Positions 29,615 to 62,107 of a stretch of DNA of 64,000 nucleotides are shown here, in pieces. The first letter of the stretch is position 1; the number at the start of each line of letters is the position of its first letter. The position numbers and the translations under genes are program-made. Source of the stretch: Enterocloster lavalensis (GTDB lineage Bacteria; Bacillota; Clostridia; Lachnospirales; Lachnospiraceae); the NCBI RefSeq assembly GCF_902364025.1, contig NZ_CABJCG010000012.1:143949-207948 (forward strand). The letters run 5' to 3'. The notes beneath the pieces are model-generated. The model was not told the origin of the DNA and did no database searches. It saw only the letters and a list, made by a program, of their open reading frames with translations.

Positions 29615-29658
29615 GGCATCCGCGGAACAATCAAAAAAACCATTGTCCCGCAGATGCC
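29615..29658. terminator. 17-bp imperfect hairpin upstream of the CDF gene
   Basis: GGCATCCGCGGAACAAT pairs with ATTGTCCCGCAGATGCC across a short A-rich loop. On the minus strand TTTTTG follows, giving terminator form. It lies 230 bp after the GH1 stop, beyond a first terminator, and may be a backup or leader hairpin of the CDF gene. The rest of 29546-29827 holds no gene. Confidence 0.5.
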
Positions 29659-29826
29659 GCCTGATCCACCTGCTGCCGCTTATGCGGCCCGGCCCGCGCG
29701 CTGCCGCCCGCGGCCTGTTTCCTTTATACCATTACGATTCCTCAGCGCGCCGGCTGATTCTGTAATTCATTCTATGACGGAAAGGCGCGTCCGGTTCCAG
29801 CCCGGAGCTCCATTTTGCAAAAATCG

Positions 29827-31320: not shown

Positions 31321-32964
31321 TCATTCTCCATTTTGTTCCCGGTCTGAGGCCGGCAGTTCCTCAAATCCCACCAGGTAGGTGAGCGCTGCCGCCCCGAAAA
31401 AGGCCGCTCCGATGCCCGCCAGGTAAAAAGCGAACCTCGTCATGCCATAGGCCGCGTAGGTAAAGACCGTCAGCACGCCGTTGTTGGCAAAAGCGTCGCC
31501 GTAGACATTTCCGATTCCCATGACCGCGCCGCCCACCGCCCCGCAGATCACCGCGCAGACCATGGGCTTTTTTAACCGCAGGTTGCAGCCGTAGATCGCA
31601 GGCTCGGTCACGCCCACCACCGAGGCGGTCAGGGCGGCGGAGGCTGCGATCTGTCTCAGCTCCCGGTTTCCGGTTTTCAGGCACACCCCCAGGGCAGCCC
31701 CGCCCTGGGCGAAATTGGCCGCACCGGCAAACGCCAGCAGGTTCTGCCGCCCGTTCACTGCCACATCGTTGAGCCCGATGGGAAGCAGCGCCCGGTGCGC
31801 TCCGAAAATGACGCAGACGCCCCAGAGCCCGCCCACCAGCGCGCCGCCCAGAACCGTGCTGAAGCCCATCATCGTGTCGTAGAGATACTGGATCCCGTTG
31901 CCCACGTAAATTCCCACAGGTCCCAAAACCACCAGGGTGAGCGGCAGGATCACAAGCAGCTCCAGCCCGGGCACCGCAATCAGCCGGACGATCTCCGGGA
32001 TGACGCGGGTGAGCCACCGCTCCAGAACCGCCATACACAAAATGGCAAGGATGATGGGGATAACGGACTCCGTGTAGGAGAACACCTTGACCGAGGAACC
32101 GATCTGCCAGGCGTTTTTCAGCACCGGCAGGCCGAAAATGGTGGTGGCCTGCTCCGTGTTCTGGATCAGCACATCCATCTGTGGATACACCAGCGAGGCG
32201 CCCACCACCATGGCCATCACCCGGTTGCAGCGGAAAGCCTTTGCACAGGTCATTGCCAAAAAAATGGGCATAAAATAGAAAATCACCTGGCTGGCCGCGT
32301 TCAAAATCACGTAGGTGTCCGTGGCCGCCAGATCGATGCCGTAGCGCTCCAGCAAAAGCCGCGCCGCAGTCAGCAGCCCTTTGATCAGCCCCGACGCCGC
32401 GATGGCCGGGATCAGGGGAGTGAAAATTTCCGCCACTTTCTGCAGAATCAGATCTCCGATGGGGCGCCGGGGGGAAGTGGGGGCTGCACCCGGGGCCGGA
32501 GTGGGGGCTGCGCCCGGGGCCGGAGTGGGGGCTGCGCCCGGGGCCGGAGCGTGGGACGCGCCCGGGGCCGGAGCGGGGGACGCGCCCGAGGTCGGAGCGG
32601 GGGACGCGCCTGGAGTCGGAGCGGAGGACGCGCCCGGGGTCGGAGCGGGGGACGCGCCCGGCAATGGAGTGGGGGTAGCGCCCGACGGCGCCCCGCCTCC
32701 ACTGCTCTTCTCCTTCAATATATCTTCCAATTCCTGGTAAATCCCCTGCACCTTTGTGCCGCAGACCACCTGGTACTGACCGCCCGCTCTGACCACGGAA
32801 ATGACGCCCTCCGCCCGGCTCACCTCCTCGTCCCTTGGAATGCGTTCATCCTTCAGGACAAAGCGCAGGCGCGTAAAACAATGGGTGACCTCCTTAACAT
32901 TGTCCGCGCCTCCCACAAGGTTTAAAATTGTCTCTGCCACTCTTCTCTTATCCATATCGGACAT
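31321..32964 (-). CDS. PTS beta-glucoside-type EIIBC with tandem-repeat linker
   Basis: The 547-residue protein begins with an EIIB domain whose phospho-Cys lies in THCFTRLRFVLKD (about residue 29) and ends with a ten-helix EIIC domain (IGDLILQKVAEIFTPLIPAIAASG onward). The 80-residue linker (about 88-168) is a Pro/Ala/Gly repeat of 8-residue units encoded by 24-bp tandem repeats, much longer than normal. No EIIA domain is attached or nearby, so a shared EIIA must be used. It imports and phosphorylates a beta-glucoside for the GH1 enzyme downstream. Start is ATG 32964 or 32955. No BglG-type antiterminator is adjacent. Confidence 0.92.
   Translation of the reverse strand: MSDMDKRRVAETILNLVGGADNVKEVTHCFTRLRFVLKDERIPRDEEVSRAEGVISVVRAGGQYQVVCGTKVQGIYQELEDILKEKSSGGGAPSGATPTPLPGASPAPTPGASSAPTPGASPAPTSGASPAPAPGASHAPAPGAAPTPAPGAAPTPAPGAAPTSPRRPIGDLILQKVAEIFTPLIPAIAASGLIKGLLTAARLLLERYGIDLAATDTYVILNAASQVIFYFMPIFLAMTCAKAFRCNRVMAMVVGASLVYPQMDVLIQNTEQATTIFGLPVLKNAWQIGSSVKVFSYTESVIPIILAILCMAVLERWLTRVIPEIVRLIAVPGLELLVILPLTLVVLGPVGIYVGNGIQYLYDTMMGFSTVLGGALVGGLWGVCVIFGAHRALLPIGLNDVAVNGRQNLLAFAGAANFAQGGAALGVCLKTGNRELRQIAASAALTASVVGVTEPAIYGCNLRLKKPMVCAVICGAVGGAVMGIGNVYGDAFANNGVLTVFTYAAYGMTRFAFYLAGIGAAFFGAAALTYLVGFEELPASDREQNGE
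32480..32695. repeat. 24-bp tandem repeats in the EIIBC linker
   Basis: There are eight 24-bp copies from 32480 to 32671 and a degenerate ninth to 32695. The consensus is close to GGGGACGCGCCCGGGGCCGG plus AGYG. Each encodes eight residues of the type PGASPAPT. Copy number is likely to vary between strains because the units are nearly identical. Confidence 0.9.
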
Positions 32965-33014
32965 CACCTGACCTTTTGCATATCATGCCGTTCGTATTGT
33001 GGACGTTGCCCCTT

Positions 33015-33592: not shown

Positions 33593-35506
33593 TTATTCTT
33601 CCAACTCTCTATGTTTCCGTTCCCGCTTCACCTTGTACATCGCCGTGTCCGCGCACTTAAGCAGGCTCGCGTAGTCCTCCCCGTCCTCGGGGTAAAAGGC
33701 GCAGCCCGCGGAAAAACGCACCGGAATGGGCTCCCCGCCGGTCAGTTCCGCCGTCTCCACATTCATCACATTGCGAAGCCGTTCGATCAGCGCTTCCAGC
33801 TCCTCCCGGTTGGCGCAGCCGTACAGGAACGCGGCAAATTCGTCCCCGCTTAGGCGGGCCAGAACGCTCTTCTCGCTGCAGACGGACCGGAAAATCCTCG
33901 CCACGCCCTGCAGATAGCGGTCCCCGTTCTGGTGCCCGAACCGGTCGTTGACCTGCTTGAGATTGTCCGCATCCGCCATGAGCATCGCACAGGCCCCCAG
34001 CTCGTTGGGGTTGCCGAACAGCTCCTCCATGCGCCGGTAAAACGCACGCCGGTTGTACAGGCCGGTGAGCAGATCGATGTCCCGCTCCTGCTCGATCCGC
34101 CTGCGCTCCCGGATATCCTCCGTCACATCCACGATCAGTCCCAAAACGCTGTACTCCCGGAAATACGTCTCCAGGCGGACAAACCGCTCCGGCTCTCCGG
34201 GCAGGACGTACACACCCTTCTCCTCGTTCAGCGGGTTCTGCCGTATGGCTTCCAGATGTTCCTCAAACAGAGCGTGATCGGCAAACAGCTGTGTTGCCTC
34301 ATCCCCGGCCAGCCCCAGGATTCCGGCCACCCTGCTGGTGACCATCACCCGCCTCATCCTCTGGTTGTATTCATAAACTCCGATGGGCACCTGGGCCACG
34401 TCCAGAATCTGCGACAGCTTGTTGGTATTGTCCCGAATACTGCGCACCATCAGATTGATGCGCCCGCTGAGCTCCGAGAACTCCGGCGTGCTGTCCTCCT
34501 CCACCGTGGTTTCCAGATTGCCGACGGTGATCTCCGTCAGCTTCCGGTTGATGGAGGAAATCCCGTCCACAATGTATCGGTCAATGTAGTTGGAGATGGA
34601 GACGATCATCAGCAGCGCCACCAGCACCAGATACAGTGCCACCAGGGCGGTACTCCGGTTTACCCCGCGGTACAGCGAAACGCTGCTCCGCGCCATCCCC
34701 AAAATCACCGAGCCGGACGGCGCGAACACGCAGTAGCTGTCCACCCCGTCAAGCTCCGCCCGCAATCCCTTTCGGCTGCTCAGAACCTGTTCCGGTCCAA
34801 GACCCACATCCTCTAATTCTTTTCCCACAAGCGCATCCTGGGTGGCTCCCAGAATCCGAAAATTCTCCGGGTCCACGGCAAAAATCACAGACCCGTTCTC
34901 CACTGTCACCAAAGAGAAAATGTAGGACAGCTCGTTCTTCTTCATGGCCTCCAGCACGCGGGTGGGCTCCAGGCCGATCTGCACGATCCCCTGCCCGTCC
35001 GGCCTCCAAACCGCCGCGTACTGCATGAGCTTGCTCTCCGCGGTGTTGGGCGTGATATCCTGGCACAGCTCCAGGCTGCGGTCCGTCAGCATGGGCAGGA
35101 AAAAGCGCATCTGCTCGCCGGAATTGAAATTGTAGCCATAATACTTTGGCTCGGAACCCGCGTACAGATTACCCTGGGTGTCAAAGAGGTGCAGTTCGTC
35201 CACCTGCAGCAGGCCGGCGATCTTCTTCATCTCCGCCTGATCCGGGATCACCTCCGGGTGGCTCTGTAAAATGTAGGCCGCCGCCTTGGCCCTTATAAAG
35301 CAGTCCTGCTTCAACTCCTGCCTGGCCCTGGCCGTATCCTGCTCGTTCTGGTCCAGAATCCGCTCAATCTGCTTAAAATTGTCCAGCGCTTCCTCATGCA
35401 TTCCCCTCCGGGCGCTCTGAATCTGCACAAAATAATTTAGGAACAGGGTCAGCAGCATGGCGGTCAGAATCACCATACACAGCCGTCTGCGAATCATCCG
35501 CTTCAT
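33593..35506 (-). CDS. Membrane sensor diguanylate cyclase (GGDEF)
   Basis: The 637-residue protein has a first membrane helix (about 7-27), an extracellular sensor of about 240 residues resembling a double-Cache fold, a second helix (ALVALYLVLVALLMIVSISN), HAMP-like and PAS-like regions, and a C-terminal GGDEF domain (DIDLLTGLYNRRAFYRRM to the end). The active loop reads SGDEF, a variant usually active, so it should make cyclic di-GMP from GTP in response to an outside ligand. No EAL domain is present. ATG at 35506 follows AGGGGGAA. It is single-gene with its own terminator. Confidence 0.9.
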   Translation of the reverse strand: MKRMIRRRLCMVILTAMLLTLFLNYFVQIQSARRGMHEEALDNFKQIERILDQNEQDTARARQELKQDCFIRAKAAAYILQSHPEVIPDQAEMKKIAGLLQVDELHLFDTQGNLYAGSEPKYYGYNFNSGEQMRFFLPMLTDRSLELCQDITPNTAESKLMQYAAVWRPDGQGIVQIGLEPTRVLEAMKKNELSYIFSLVTVENGSVIFAVDPENFRILGATQDALVGKELEDVGLGPEQVLSSRKGLRAELDGVDSYCVFAPSGSVILGMARSSVSLYRGVNRSTALVALYLVLVALLMIVSISNYIDRYIVDGISSINRKLTEITVGNLETTVEEDSTPEFSELSGRINLMVRSIRDNTNKLSQILDVAQVPIGVYEYNQRMRRVMVTSRVAGILGLAGDEATQLFADHALFEEHLEAIRQNPLNEEKGVYVLPGEPERFVRLETYFREYSVLGLIVDVTEDIRERRRIEQERDIDLLTGLYNRRAFYRRMEELFGNPNELGACAMLMADADNLKQVNDRFGHQNGDRYLQGVARIFRSVCSEKSVLARLSGDEFAAFLYGCANREELEALIERLRNVMNVETAELTGGEPIPVRFSAGCAFYPEDGEDYASLLKCADTAMYKVKRERKHRELEE

Positions 35507-35684
35507 CCCGCTTCCCCCTTTCGCTCCGCCCAGCCGCTGCCGGCGGAATTTTCCCAAATTCCCGCCGCTCACCGTCGGCTGTTCTGTCTCTATTATAAAT
35601 GTCCCACAGCTCAAAGGGAAGGAAAAATTTCCCTCTTTCGAAAATCTTATGGATTCTGCGGATGACGGGCGGGCAAAAATGCGT

Positions 35685-35924
35685 TATAATCAAGGAAACG
35701 TATCTCTTATCGACAGCCTACGGCTGACGACAAGGTATAATCAAGGAAACGCATCTCTTATCGACAGCCTGCGGCTGACGACAAGGTATAATCAAGGAAA
35801 CGTATCTCTTATCGACAGCCTACGGCTGACGACAAGGTATAATCAAGGAAACGTATCTCTTATCGACAGCCTGCGGCTGACGACAAGGTATAATCAAGGA
35901 AACGCATCTCTGAGAAAACAGAGA
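35685..35924 (+). repeat. Tandem array of 51-bp repeats upstream of the RelA/SpoT-HEPN gene
   Basis: TATAAT recurs at 35685, 35736, 35787, 35838 and 35889, an exact 51-bp period. There are four full units and a fifth partial one ending near 35911. Each unit reads TATAATCAAGGAAACGYATC, then CTCTTATCGACAGCC, then a short dyad CAGCCTRCGGCTG. Units alternate at single Y/R positions. The array is followed by a small TCTCTG/CAGAGA hairpin (35907-35924) and ends 35 bp before the next gene. There are no unique spacers. Related units are found at 62005 and 17913. Confidence 0.9.
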
Positions 35925-35958
35925 CAGACTTAAATAACAATATTGACGGGGAATAGCC

Positions 35959-37200
35959 ATGGATTTAATCAATCAATTTATTGAAAATTATAAACGAAAA
36001 CTGAATTTTTATGAGGCAGCGGGACGGCTTGCGGCGAAACAGCTGGAGGCTTCCCTTCAGTCCGCCGGTATCCGGGCCATGGTGACCTCCCGGCCCAAGG
36101 CGCCCGGCCGCCTCAAAAGCAAGGTTCTGATCCGGAATTCCAGAAGAGCCGTGCCCTATAAAAATATGCGTGAGATATATGAGGATATCGCCGACCTCTC
36201 CGGTGTCCGCGTGTCCCTGTATTTCCCGGGCGACCGCGACAAGACGGACAGTCTGGTCTGCGACCTGTTCACGATCCTGGAGACCAAACAGTTCCCGGAG
36301 CAGTCCAAGCCGCCCACCTACAACAAACGCTTTTCCGGTTACTGGGCCAACCACTATCGCGCCCGCATGCGGGAGGACTCCCTTGAACCCTCCCAGAAAA
36401 AGTACGCCGAGGCGCGCATCGAGATTCAGGTGGCTTCCGTTCTCATGCACGCCTGGTCCGAGGTGGAGCACGACCTGGTGTACAAGCCCCTTCAGGGTAC
36501 TCTCTCCGACGAGGAGCTGGCGATCCTGGACGAGCTGAACGGCCTGGTGCTGGCCGGAGAGATCGCCCTGGAACGCCTTCAGAGCGCAGGCAACGAACGG
36601 GTGCGCAACAAAAACGCCGCCTTTTCCAGCCAGTATGAGCTGGCCTCCTACCTGTACAATTATCTGAGCAACAATTTCCGACCCGAGGACATCGAGCTGC
36701 GCATGGGGAACATCGAGCTGCTGTTCCGCCTGATCAGCCGCCTCAAGATGAACACGGTCAAGGAGATCCAGCCCGTCCTCAAATCCGTGAAATTTGAGAA
36801 AGACCGCCGCAACATTTCCCAGCAGATCGTCGATCAGATCATCACGGGAAATGAAAAGCGCTACGCCATTTACCAGGAACTGCGGGACGGCCGGGAGGGC
36901 GGAGGCGAGGACAGCCGCCAGGCCGCCAGCTATTTCTTCAGCCAGTGGGTGCCTTTGGAGCGCATGCTCAACCGCATCTCCAACCGGAATTCCCAGAAGC
37001 TGCGGGGCGCCTTCAACATCAACACCTTGAACCGGATGAACGTGCTGGACAAGGACTGCCTAAACCGTATCGTTTCCCTGCGCAAGAGCCGCAACATGCT
37101 GATCCACGACATCGAGGTGCCGGAGGCCGACTTCATCACCAAACAGGGGGACGAGGCCAGGGAGCTGCTGGAAAAGCTGGGGGAACAATTCCCCTCCTGA
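35959..37200 (+). CDS. RelA/SpoT-domain protein with HEPN-like C-terminus
   Basis: The 413-residue soluble protein has an alarmone-synthetase-like N-terminus: YEDIADLSGVRVSLYF carries the metal-binding Asp and Arg, SGYWANHYRARM matches the substrate Tyr/His loop, and ARIEIQVASVLMHAWSEVEH matches the EIQ...W.E.EH motif of RelA/SpoT synthetases. The hydrolase HD domain and the TGS/ACT regulatory domains are absent. The C-terminus ends in helices containing SLRKSRNMLIHD, an Arg-x4-His (R378, H383) motif typical of HEPN ribonucleases. The fusion is unusual and suggests a stress or phage-defence effector rather than housekeeping ppGpp synthesis. ATG follows GGGGAATAGCC. Confidence 0.75.
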   Translation: MDLINQFIENYKRKLNFYEAAGRLAAKQLEASLQSAGIRAMVTSRPKAPGRLKSKVLIRNSRRAVPYKNMREIYEDIADLSGVRVSLYFPGDRDKTDSLVCDLFTILETKQFPEQSKPPTYNKRFSGYWANHYRARMREDSLEPSQKKYAEARIEIQVASVLMHAWSEVEHDLVYKPLQGTLSDEELAILDELNGLVLAGEIALERLQSAGNERVRNKNAAFSSQYELASYLYNYLSNNFRPEDIELRMGNIELLFRLISRLKMNTVKEIQPVLKSVKFEKDRRNISQQIVDQIITGNEKRYAIYQELRDGREGGGEDSRQAASYFFSQWVPLERMLNRISNRNSQKLRGAFNINTLNRMNVLDKDCLNRIVSLRKSRNMLIHDIEVPEADFITKQGDEARELLEKLGEQFPS

Positions 37201-43815: not shown

Positions 43816-45627
43816 TCAAAGTCCGTACTTTTTGATTTTATGCTGCAAGGCCTGCCGGGTGATCATAAGCTCTCTGGCCGCCGCGGACACATTTCCGCCC
43901 AGGCGCGCCAATGTAGCGGCGAGGATGGATTTCTCGTAGGCGTCCATGGCCTCCTTTAGGGGGATGGGCGGGAGCTCCGGTGATTGGCCGGGGCTGCCTG
44001 GGAAACCGCCGGGCCGATGGGCGGTCGGTTCTCCCGGCAGGGCGCGGAAATCCCCCAGAACGGCCGGAATGGTTGTTGGGAAATCCATGGGATCCGTAGA
44101 GCCTGCGGCTGAGGAAATCGGAGAATCCAAAGGCTGCGAAGCGGCCGGGGCCGCCGCCATGGAAGCTGCTGCATCCACCGTACCCGCCGCTATGGGAGCC
44201 GCTGCGGCCCCCGCTGCACCCGCTGCACCCGGCCCCGCCGTACCAGCCGTACCTGCCGCCACGGGAACCGCTGATCCCGTGGGCCCCGGCTCCGCTGTAC
44301 CAGCCGTACCCGCCGCCACGGGGGCCGCTGCCCCCGCCGCCCCCGGCTCCGCGAAGAAACTGCGGTAATAAGGCGAGATATGTTCCAGGCGGAGCACATC
44401 CAGATTCTGTTCGGAAACAGAATAGGCGCTCTCGACCACATGCTGGAGCTCCCGCACATTTCCCGGCCACTGGTAGCGGAGAAAGCGCTCCATCAGCCCG
44501 GAGTCAATCCGCCGGATGTGCTGGCCGTACTCCCGGTTGAAGCGGGTGATAAAGCAGCCGCACAAGAGCGGAATGTCGCTCTTGCGGCTGCGCAGGGGCG
44601 GGATGTGTAAAATGCAGGAGGACAGGCGGTAATACAGGTCCCGCCGCAGCTTGCCGTTCTCGATGCACTCCAGCGGGTCCTCGTTGAGGGCGCAGAGGAT
44701 GCGGCAGTTGATAGCCAGCTCCTTCTCCGAGCCGATGCGCCGGACGGTCTTGTTCTCAATCACCTTTAAAAGCTTGGCCTGGAGCGCGATGTCCATGCTG
44801 TTGATCTCATCCAGAAACAGGGTGCCGTTCTCCGCCTGCTCGAACAGCCCGGCCATGTTGTTGGCCCCGGTGTAGGACCCCTTCACCGTGCCGAAAAACA
44901 TGCTCTCCAGCAGAGTGGCCGGGATTGCGGCGCAGTTCACGGAGATAAACGGCCCGTTCTGAAACACGCTGTAGTTGTGAATGCTTTGGGCGAACAGCTC
45001 TTTGCCCGTGCCCGTCTCCCCGTAAATCAGCACGTTGGTCTGGTTCTGGGCCACGTGCTTGGCGTTGGAAATGGCCTCCACGAAGTTGATATCGTTGCCC
45101 AGAATGCTGCTGAAGGTGTACTTGGTGCCGTTGCGCGGCTTCTCCTCCTCAAAATGGGTGTACAGCTCCAGGCTCTGCTCCATGGTCTTTTTCATCACAG
45201 GCAGGTTCTTGATCAGGGAGTACACGGCCACGGTGCGGTTTTTGTAATTCACCGGAAACATCCGCTCAATAACGTTTAAAACCTTGTGGCTCTCCTTCAC
45301 CACATACTGGTTGAAATATTCGTTGGCCGCGATCCCCGTGTTCAGCACAATGGCGTGGCGGCTGTGTTTCGGCGTGTTCTCCGTGGGACAGTAAAGCTCC
45401 TCCATGCTCTTGTGCAGGGACTTCTTCGCGTCCACGCCCTCGATCACCTCGGCCGCCCGGTTGATGAAGATCACCTTGTTCTCGTCGTCCGAGATCACCA
45501 CCGCCTCCTCCACCTGGTTCAGCACCGCCTCATAAATCCGGTTCATCATCTCCGGGGTATATTCCATCCCGCTCCCAACCCGGTCTACCTCCCGCTCCCC
45601 GGCCCTGGCTTCCGTCTCATTCTGCAT
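43816..45627 (-). CDS. Sigma-54-dependent transcriptional activator with PAS sensor
   Basis: The 603-residue protein has an N-terminal PAS domain (about 30-140; EAVVISDDENKVIFINRAAE), an AAA+ domain with Walker A GETGTGKE (203-210), a GSYTGA variant of the sigma-54-contacting GAFTGA loop, Walker B GTLFLDEINSMD, and a Fis-type helix-turn-helix (NVSAAARELMITRQALQHKI) at the end. Between AAA+ and HTH lies an unusual stretch of about 115 residues rich in Ala, Gly and Pro. It probably senses a metabolite and activates the adjacent -24/-12 promoter. ATG at 45627 lies within the ackA coding end. Confidence 0.92.
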   Translation of the reverse strand: MQNETEARAGEREVDRVGSGMEYTPEMMNRIYEAVLNQVEEAVVISDDENKVIFINRAAEVIEGVDAKKSLHKSMEELYCPTENTPKHSRHAIVLNTGIAANEYFNQYVVKESHKVLNVIERMFPVNYKNRTVAVYSLIKNLPVMKKTMEQSLELYTHFEEEKPRNGTKYTFSSILGNDINFVEAISNAKHVAQNQTNVLIYGETGTGKELFAQSIHNYSVFQNGPFISVNCAAIPATLLESMFFGTVKGSYTGANNMAGLFEQAENGTLFLDEINSMDIALQAKLLKVIENKTVRRIGSEKELAINCRILCALNEDPLECIENGKLRRDLYYRLSSCILHIPPLRSRKSDIPLLCGCFITRFNREYGQHIRRIDSGLMERFLRYQWPGNVRELQHVVESAYSVSEQNLDVLRLEHISPYYRSFFAEPGAAGAAAPVAAGTAGTAEPGPTGSAVPVAAGTAGTAGPGAAGAAGAAAAPIAAGTVDAAASMAAAPAASQPLDSPISSAAGSTDPMDFPTTIPAVLGDFRALPGEPTAHRPGGFPGSPGQSPELPPIPLKEAMDAYEKSILAATLARLGGNVSAAARELMITRQALQHKIKKYGL

Positions 45628-61972: not shown

Positions 61973-62004
61973 GCTACTTTTCAGATCAATTTTTAATTAT
62001 TTTA

Positions 62005-62107
62005 CTTTGTCAGCAGCCGCCAGGCTGATGATAAGGAATGCCTTTTCTTATTATACTTTGTCACCAGCCGCCAGGCTGATGATAAGGGATGCGTTTCCTT
62101 ATTATAA
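62005..62107 (-). repeat. Two tandem 51-bp repeats upstream of MATE gene 3
   Basis: CTTTGTCA recurs at 62005 and 62056, an exact 51-bp period. On the minus strand each unit reads TATAATAAGGAAACGCATCC, CTTATCATCAGCC and a GGCTGRTGACAAAG dyad arm, matching the array at 35685 in order and orientation to the gene. Each carries a TATAAT. Confidence 0.85.

Follow-up and report, generated by a model that had tools for sequence, protein, structure and literature searches.

Fused small alarmone synthetases, in which a synthetase domain shares one polypeptide with a C-terminal module, are already known. In Tde-SAS of Treponema denticola the synthetase is followed by a C-terminal tetratricopeptide repeat (TPR) domain, which is described as a brake on the tetrameric protein (PMC10434055), and in CapRel, a fused toxSAS-antitoxin, a single-chain small synthetase carries a C-terminal control domain (PMC9712102). 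HEPN domains with an RN-x3-H motif occur together with a partner of the nucleotidyltransferase fold in the HepT/MntA systems (PMC7641770), and the fpRel2 subgroup of synthetases is reported from Firmicutes and beta-proteobacteria (PMC3153485). Here we describe a gene of Enterocloster lavalensis, located in a stretch of 64,000 nucleotides (contig NZ_CABJCG010000012.1, positions 143,949 to 207,948; in the following, the window), whose product appears to join a RelA/SpoT-type synthetase to a C-terminal HEPN domain. The HEPN tail on such a synthetase would be the new element: among the open-access literature matches listed, no description of a synthetase-HEPN fusion was found by title or start of the abstract, and the words "SpoT" and "alarmone" do not occur in the main text of the 2013 HEPN census (PMC3710099). 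Automatic annotation has already seen the combination, since one relative (P0240) is named after a ppGpp synthetase and YutE/DUF86.

The N-terminal part of the protein matches the Pfam family RelA_SpoT (PF04607; E 7.9e-10, 39.5 bits, cut-off 27), and its fold and catalytic residues resemble those of RelQ and RelP in the structure comparison. The only other Pfam match at E<=10 is a single sub-threshold helical domain; at this threshold no hydrolase domain, no regulatory domain of the long RelA/SpoT homologues, no TPR and no MNT domain was matched in the protein, and an MNT domain was not found in its two flanking genes either. With a synthetase domain that retains the catalytic residues and no hydrolase domain, the protein is by its sequence a small alarmone synthetase. 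Unlike RelQ and RelP, it adds a linker and a HEPN domain, and its score with the NCBIfam model GTPPhKinYjbM (26.7 bits) lies far below the cut-off of 320. The VIA alignment with CapRel structures spans residues 1-206 only. The PADLOC candidate family PDC-S33 weakly matched 45 of 48 members at E<=1 (lowest E-value 1e-8); in the window protein this match covers residues 121-167 only (E 0.0012).

Support for the HEPN assignment of the tail comes mainly from profile comparison, the conserved motif and the VIA rows, since a Foldseek search with the tail alone gave a best E-value of 0.75 and nothing at E<=0.001. In hhalign the tail was aligned with HepT at 93.4% probability (E 2.6e-7, a single comparison), and five controls reached 0.1-1.0%; the predicted fold of the tail appears compatible with HEPN, and HepT models are the HEPN families matched by most members. 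Against the assignment, the HEPN family matches obtained with single sequences are weak, that of the window protein to HepT lying far under its cut-off; such matches, where positions are shown, fall in the tail but below the cut-offs. Judged from the sequence comparisons as a whole, residues 313-413 are a HEPN domain, and the tail with its conserved motif, which reads R378-N-M-L-I-H383, is probably also a ribonuclease.

A contig scan found 106 relatives, of which 80 were kept, and after removal of five short or split loci the first alignment comprised 76 rows, i.e. 75 relatives and the window protein. R378 and N379 are each present in 75/76 and H383 in 76/76 of these rows, and in the first long HEPN helix the figures are 75/76 for both F326 and E334 and 76/76 for W330. 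Among the 246 HEPN-type rows of a wider set, R378 was found in 232, N379 in 231 and H383 in 240, the arginine together with the histidine in 230 and all three residues in 226. The rows of this set are far from independent, 163 of them being at least 55% identical to the window protein and 83 less so; the three residues occur together in 162 of the former and 64 of the latter. As 50 of the rows were found with the TPR-type core, the sample was drawn towards the lineage that loses the motif, and two of the misses (P0048 and P0219) resemble frame or end artefacts by eye. Nine synthetase positions are identical in 315/315 rows, including 69 TPR-tailed relatives without HEPN. A thinned set of 77 rows was used for a tree of core plus linker, built with a quick method. 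Here a single branch (Shimodaira-Hasegawa-like approximate likelihood ratio test, SH-aLRT, 95) takes in P0191, all nine TPR rows and 11 of the 15 rows that lack R and H, and just one row that has them (P0208); four further rows lacking them (L073, P0219, P0233 and P0234) are placed elsewhere. From this placement, the HEPN residues appear to be mostly held outside one lineage, whereas within it the HEPN domain decayed or was replaced and the synthetase was kept. A synthetase-type RelA/SpoT domain free of hydrolase and regulatory domains, a HEPN-like tail and a motif of R378 and H383 had all been proposed in an earlier note on this DNA, and the profile comparison and the homologue survey bear them out.

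Among the loci scanned, the named relative nearest to the window protein is that of Enterocloster asparagiformis DSM 15981 (L008), with 99% protein identity. The two genes differ by 41 synonymous and four amino-acid changes (residues 27, 46, 106 and 291), residues 313-413 being without change, and the ratio of nonsynonymous to synonymous substitution rates (dN/dS) of 0.026 indicates strong purifying selection between them.

The tail is exchangeable within this group of proteins. One genome in the family of the window (G143, locus L119) encodes the same core and linker followed by TPR repeats, and a search with this core returned 69 TPR-form proteins (P0122-P0190) among the best 120 of 2377 matches, the first named one among the matches listed being from Anaerobium acetethylicum. 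Tde-SAS/DsRel resembles the window protein in that a synthetase of about 220 amino acids and a C-terminal helical tail form one chain, of 410 amino acids (PMC10434055), and the family's own TPR-tailed branch can be likened to it by architecture. The window protein differs in its tail, a HEPN domain that follows the linker of residues 216-312 and in which the ribonuclease motif is mostly conserved. Since the TPR brake of Tde-SAS sets a precedent (PMC10434055), the C-terminal module is read here as a gate.

Our preferred interpretation, to which we give a chance just short of even, is that the protein acts as a self-contained, single-chain effector of growth arrest or stress, possibly directed against phages, with a gated synthetase and a tail that is probably also a ribonuclease. 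The basis for this, from sequence and model, is the conserved synthetase site, the HEPN homology with its mostly conserved motif and the exchangeable tail, together with the lack of a recurrent partner gene, the patchy spread and the purifying selection. The N-terminal domain would transfer pyrophosphate from ATP to a nucleotide, yielding (p)ppGpp or (p)ppApp, or alternatively to the 3' end of tRNA, as with some toxic relatives, and a trigger at the tail or the linker would release this activity. HEPN ribonucleases act as dimers. Given this, and since Tde-SAS, RelP and RelQ are described as tetramers (PMC10434055), oligomer formation could in addition bring HEPN active sites together in pairs, and this one step might also set off cleavage of RNA by R378, N379 and H383; the outcome would be growth arrest. 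In its strongest form, a two-headed growth-arrest enzyme in which alarmone synthesis (or tRNA pyrophosphorylation) and RNA cleavage are coupled through the linker and set off by one trigger, the proposal is a possibility that we consider doubtful. We know of no characterised single protein that performs both alarmone synthesis and RNA cleavage, and if both activities were real, one protein would combine the chemistry of the stringent response with RNA cleavage of the toxin type. CapRel and Tde-SAS illustrate that a tail can gate an alarmone or tRNA-modifying output, whereas here the tail itself is a probable ribonuclease, and the natural series of HEPN with the motif, decayed HEPN, TPR and no tail could serve to tell a brake, a sensor and a second effector apart.

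The main rival, which we regard as unlikely, is a regulatory reading: the protein would be an accessory (p)ppGpp synthetase, and its HEPN tail would sense RNA or tRNA by binding it. R378, N379 and H383 would then serve to hold RNA rather than to cut it, leaving the alarmone as the only output. The behaviour of the two domains across the rows speaks for it, as the nine synthetase positions never vary and the HEPN motif decays or gives way to TPR, mostly in one branch of the tree; the description of the Tde-SAS tail as a brake only (PMC10434055) and the strong purifying selection between the window and DSM 15981 point the same way. The pattern of conservation in a 48-row alignment, however, is less easily accommodated: in a tail that is otherwise variable (mean column identity 31%), G250, L255, Q289, W330 and H383 are invariant and Y226, L228, F326, E334, R378 and N379 nearly so. 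Moreover, HEPN domains that follow a nucleotidyltransferase are reported to lose the Rx4-6H motif wholly or partly (PMC3710099), whereas the window family has mostly not done so.

In a second, improbable alternative the roles would be reversed, the HEPN ribonuclease being the effector of a toxin-antitoxin switch in cis and the RelA/SpoT domain, of Pol-beta type, its controller, which would either modify HEPN as MntA adenylylates HepT or act on it through the alarmone. The combination of a nucleotidyltransferase and a HEPN domain recalls the HepT/MntA layout (PMC7641770), and it is the HepT models that most members match; in the window protein, the partner domain belongs to the same chain and is a RelA/SpoT-type one. 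The tyrosine that is modified in HepT (RX4HXY) is absent, position H+2 being tyrosine in 1/246 rows and Ile385 in the window protein, and HepT-type adenylylation was rejected because this modifiable residue is lacking. The synthetase is also retained in proteins with a decayed HEPN domain or none at all, the reverse of what would be expected of a toxin-antitoxin pair.

We consider it very improbable that the gene encodes an ordinary housekeeping synthetase of the RelQ/RelP type with an uninteresting tail, even though its core has their fold and active site and the gene is common in the genus, where it was found in 11 of 17 genomes (two of the copies split) and in 6/7 of the high-quality genomes; completeness does not exceed 90% in any of the six genomes that lack the gene. 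Besides the low GTPPhKinYjbM score, its rarity further afield argues against such a role, with 12/299 genomes of the family sample matching at E<=1e-20, a count that includes the TPR form, one gene split in two and the nearest genome, and 1/398 genomes of the phylum sample at E<=1e-60, namely the nearest genome itself. The genomes of the genus are, in addition, already provided for: in 16/17 the best RelA_SpoT match is an open frame of 764-793 amino acids, of the long Rel type, and that of DSM 15981 (G001) has five RelA_SpoT matches including the synthetase-HEPN gene. The gene is thus additional to a Rel and to other small synthetases, and its spread is patchy.

Relatives come from at least Bacillota, Pseudomonadota, Actinomycetota, Bacteroidota and Acidobacteriota. 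A phylum tree (48 rows, Lachnospiraceae thinned) requires eight label changes for five groups, the minimum possible being four, which is no proof of transfer. Sixteen plasmid records match the protein, one of them (Azospirillum) over at least 80% of its length, and among phages there is one partial match to the protein and none to the DNA of the repeat array described below. A Rhizobium plasmid protein (L121:4983-6068), 24% identical over residues 3-274, is encoded near a DEAD/DEAH helicase and a gene annotated as "CxC ATPase DNA modification system associated". The window gene is flanked by genes for a GGDEF protein and a heavy-metal-associated domain protein, both on the opposite strand. No neighbour family recurs in more than two of 34 distant loci, and the most frequent adjacent family of the Lachnospiraceae-type loci is found in 12 of 46. 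Among the neighbours of distant relatives there are strong matches to PDC-M11A, Dsr1, NsnA/PD-T4-2_A and an OLD/AriA-like ATPase, and three integrases; of ten such neighbours picked by hand, four were matched to defence proteins. The Lachnospiraceae neighbours are not a clean control for this comparison. The case for defence, from patchy spread and some defence-type neighbours, is circumstantial, suggestive rather than conclusive. The frequency within the genus and the purifying selection would be no less compatible with a role in stress regulation.

The gene is preceded by a tandem array of a 51-bp unit, with 47 bases between its end and the start codon. The unit starts TATAAT..AAGGAAACG and has an inner CAGCC/GGCTG hairpin. 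The first TATAAT of the array forms the -10 box of a promoter-like site, one of two such sites that the region contains, against 0.7 expected from shuffled sequence. The folding of the array RNA is stronger than that of shuffled sequences (z -3.3) because of the hairpin in each unit. As a coding sequence (open reading frame 35457-35933) the array matched no Pfam family above the cut-off and was taken as non-coding; Rfam, at its gathering thresholds, gave three matches in the window and none in the array or the gene. Tandem Repeats Finder detected no such array in any of the 80 upstream stretches of related genes (600 bases in 78, shorter in two); those of L017 and L055 contain unrelated short-period repeats, and the DSM 15981 locus has, in place of an array, a short stretch resembling the start of one unit. 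The repeat itself abounds in the DSM 15981 genome, with 69 matches at E<=10, and none was found in 16 other genomes of the genus (E<=0.001). Dozens of sites in E. asparagiformis were noted (at L081-L118 and L124-L142), and 39 sites were inspected, 37 in this genome and two in the window. One matched unit only is present at 19/39 sites, 31/39 start exactly at TATAAT, and at 19/39 a hexamer with at least 4/6 identity to TTGACA lies 16-18 bases upstream (12.6% in shuffled flanks). Most sites lie between reading frames in a simple frame scan, and that at L087 (-) is an antisense part-match overlapping another site. From this survey, the array looks like a dispersed repeat embedded in promoters and leaders that is present at the locus in this strain, and it is separate from the protein module; no paper on such a 51-bp repeat was found by title among the open-access literature matches listed.

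That the array encodes an RNA antitoxin for the protein, as in type III toxin-antitoxin loci, has a chance close to nil: its position directly upstream, with co-transcription if the promoter-like site is real, and its folding, for which the repeated hairpin alone suffices, are outweighed by its absence before 80/80 relatives, the single short unit-like stretch at the DSM 15981 locus and the dozens of sites elsewhere in that genome, and as a family trait this reading was rejected. The earlier note had drawn this likeness loosely, and it is here abandoned; its observations of a tandem array before the gene and of related repeats elsewhere, its alternative of a dispersed repeat and its proviso that the protein should not be ubiquitous agree with the results given above.

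Table 1 Features of the synthetase-HEPN locus and of related loci (window coordinates unless a locus is given)
Feature	Position	Strand	Basis or remark
Synthetase-HEPN gene	35959..37200	+	open reading frame of 413 amino acids, ATG start
Synthetase core, residues 1-215	35959..36603	+	Pfam RelA_SpoT at residues 45-176; RelQ/RelP-like fold
Helical linker region, residues 216-312	36604..36894	+	common to TPR-tailed relatives
HEPN domain, residues 313-413	36895..37197	+	profile comparison, predicted fold, weak family matches
F326-x3-W330-x3-E334, first long HEPN helix	36934..36960	+	alignment conservation
R378-N379-x3-H383, the Rx4H motif of active HEPN ribonucleases	37090..37107	+	alignment conservation
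51-bp tandem array, presumed 5' leader	35685..35911	+	period 51, 4.5 copies, 96% matches (Tandem Repeats Finder)
Promoter-like site ATGACG-17-TATAAT	35662..35690	+	consensus match only; also at the DSM 15981 locus (L008)
Second array, dispersed repeat, before another reading frame	61997..62106	-	Tandem Repeats Finder, unit match
TPR-tailed sister gene	L119:685-2445	-	same synthetase core and linker

Some further features of the window lie apart from this locus. A NiCo riboswitch is located at 29641-29732 (-) (Rfam RF02683, 57 bits). Two reading frames contain repeats of their own: a frame of 548 amino acids at 31321-32967 (-), by eye like a phosphotransferase system transporter, includes a 24-bp repeat array (32476-32684) that codes for a linker rich in Ala, Pro, Gly and Ser, and a frame of 603 amino acids at 43816-45627 (-), by eye like a sigma-54 regulator, includes a 57-bp repeat (44211-44352) that codes for a linker rich in Ala, Gly and Pro.
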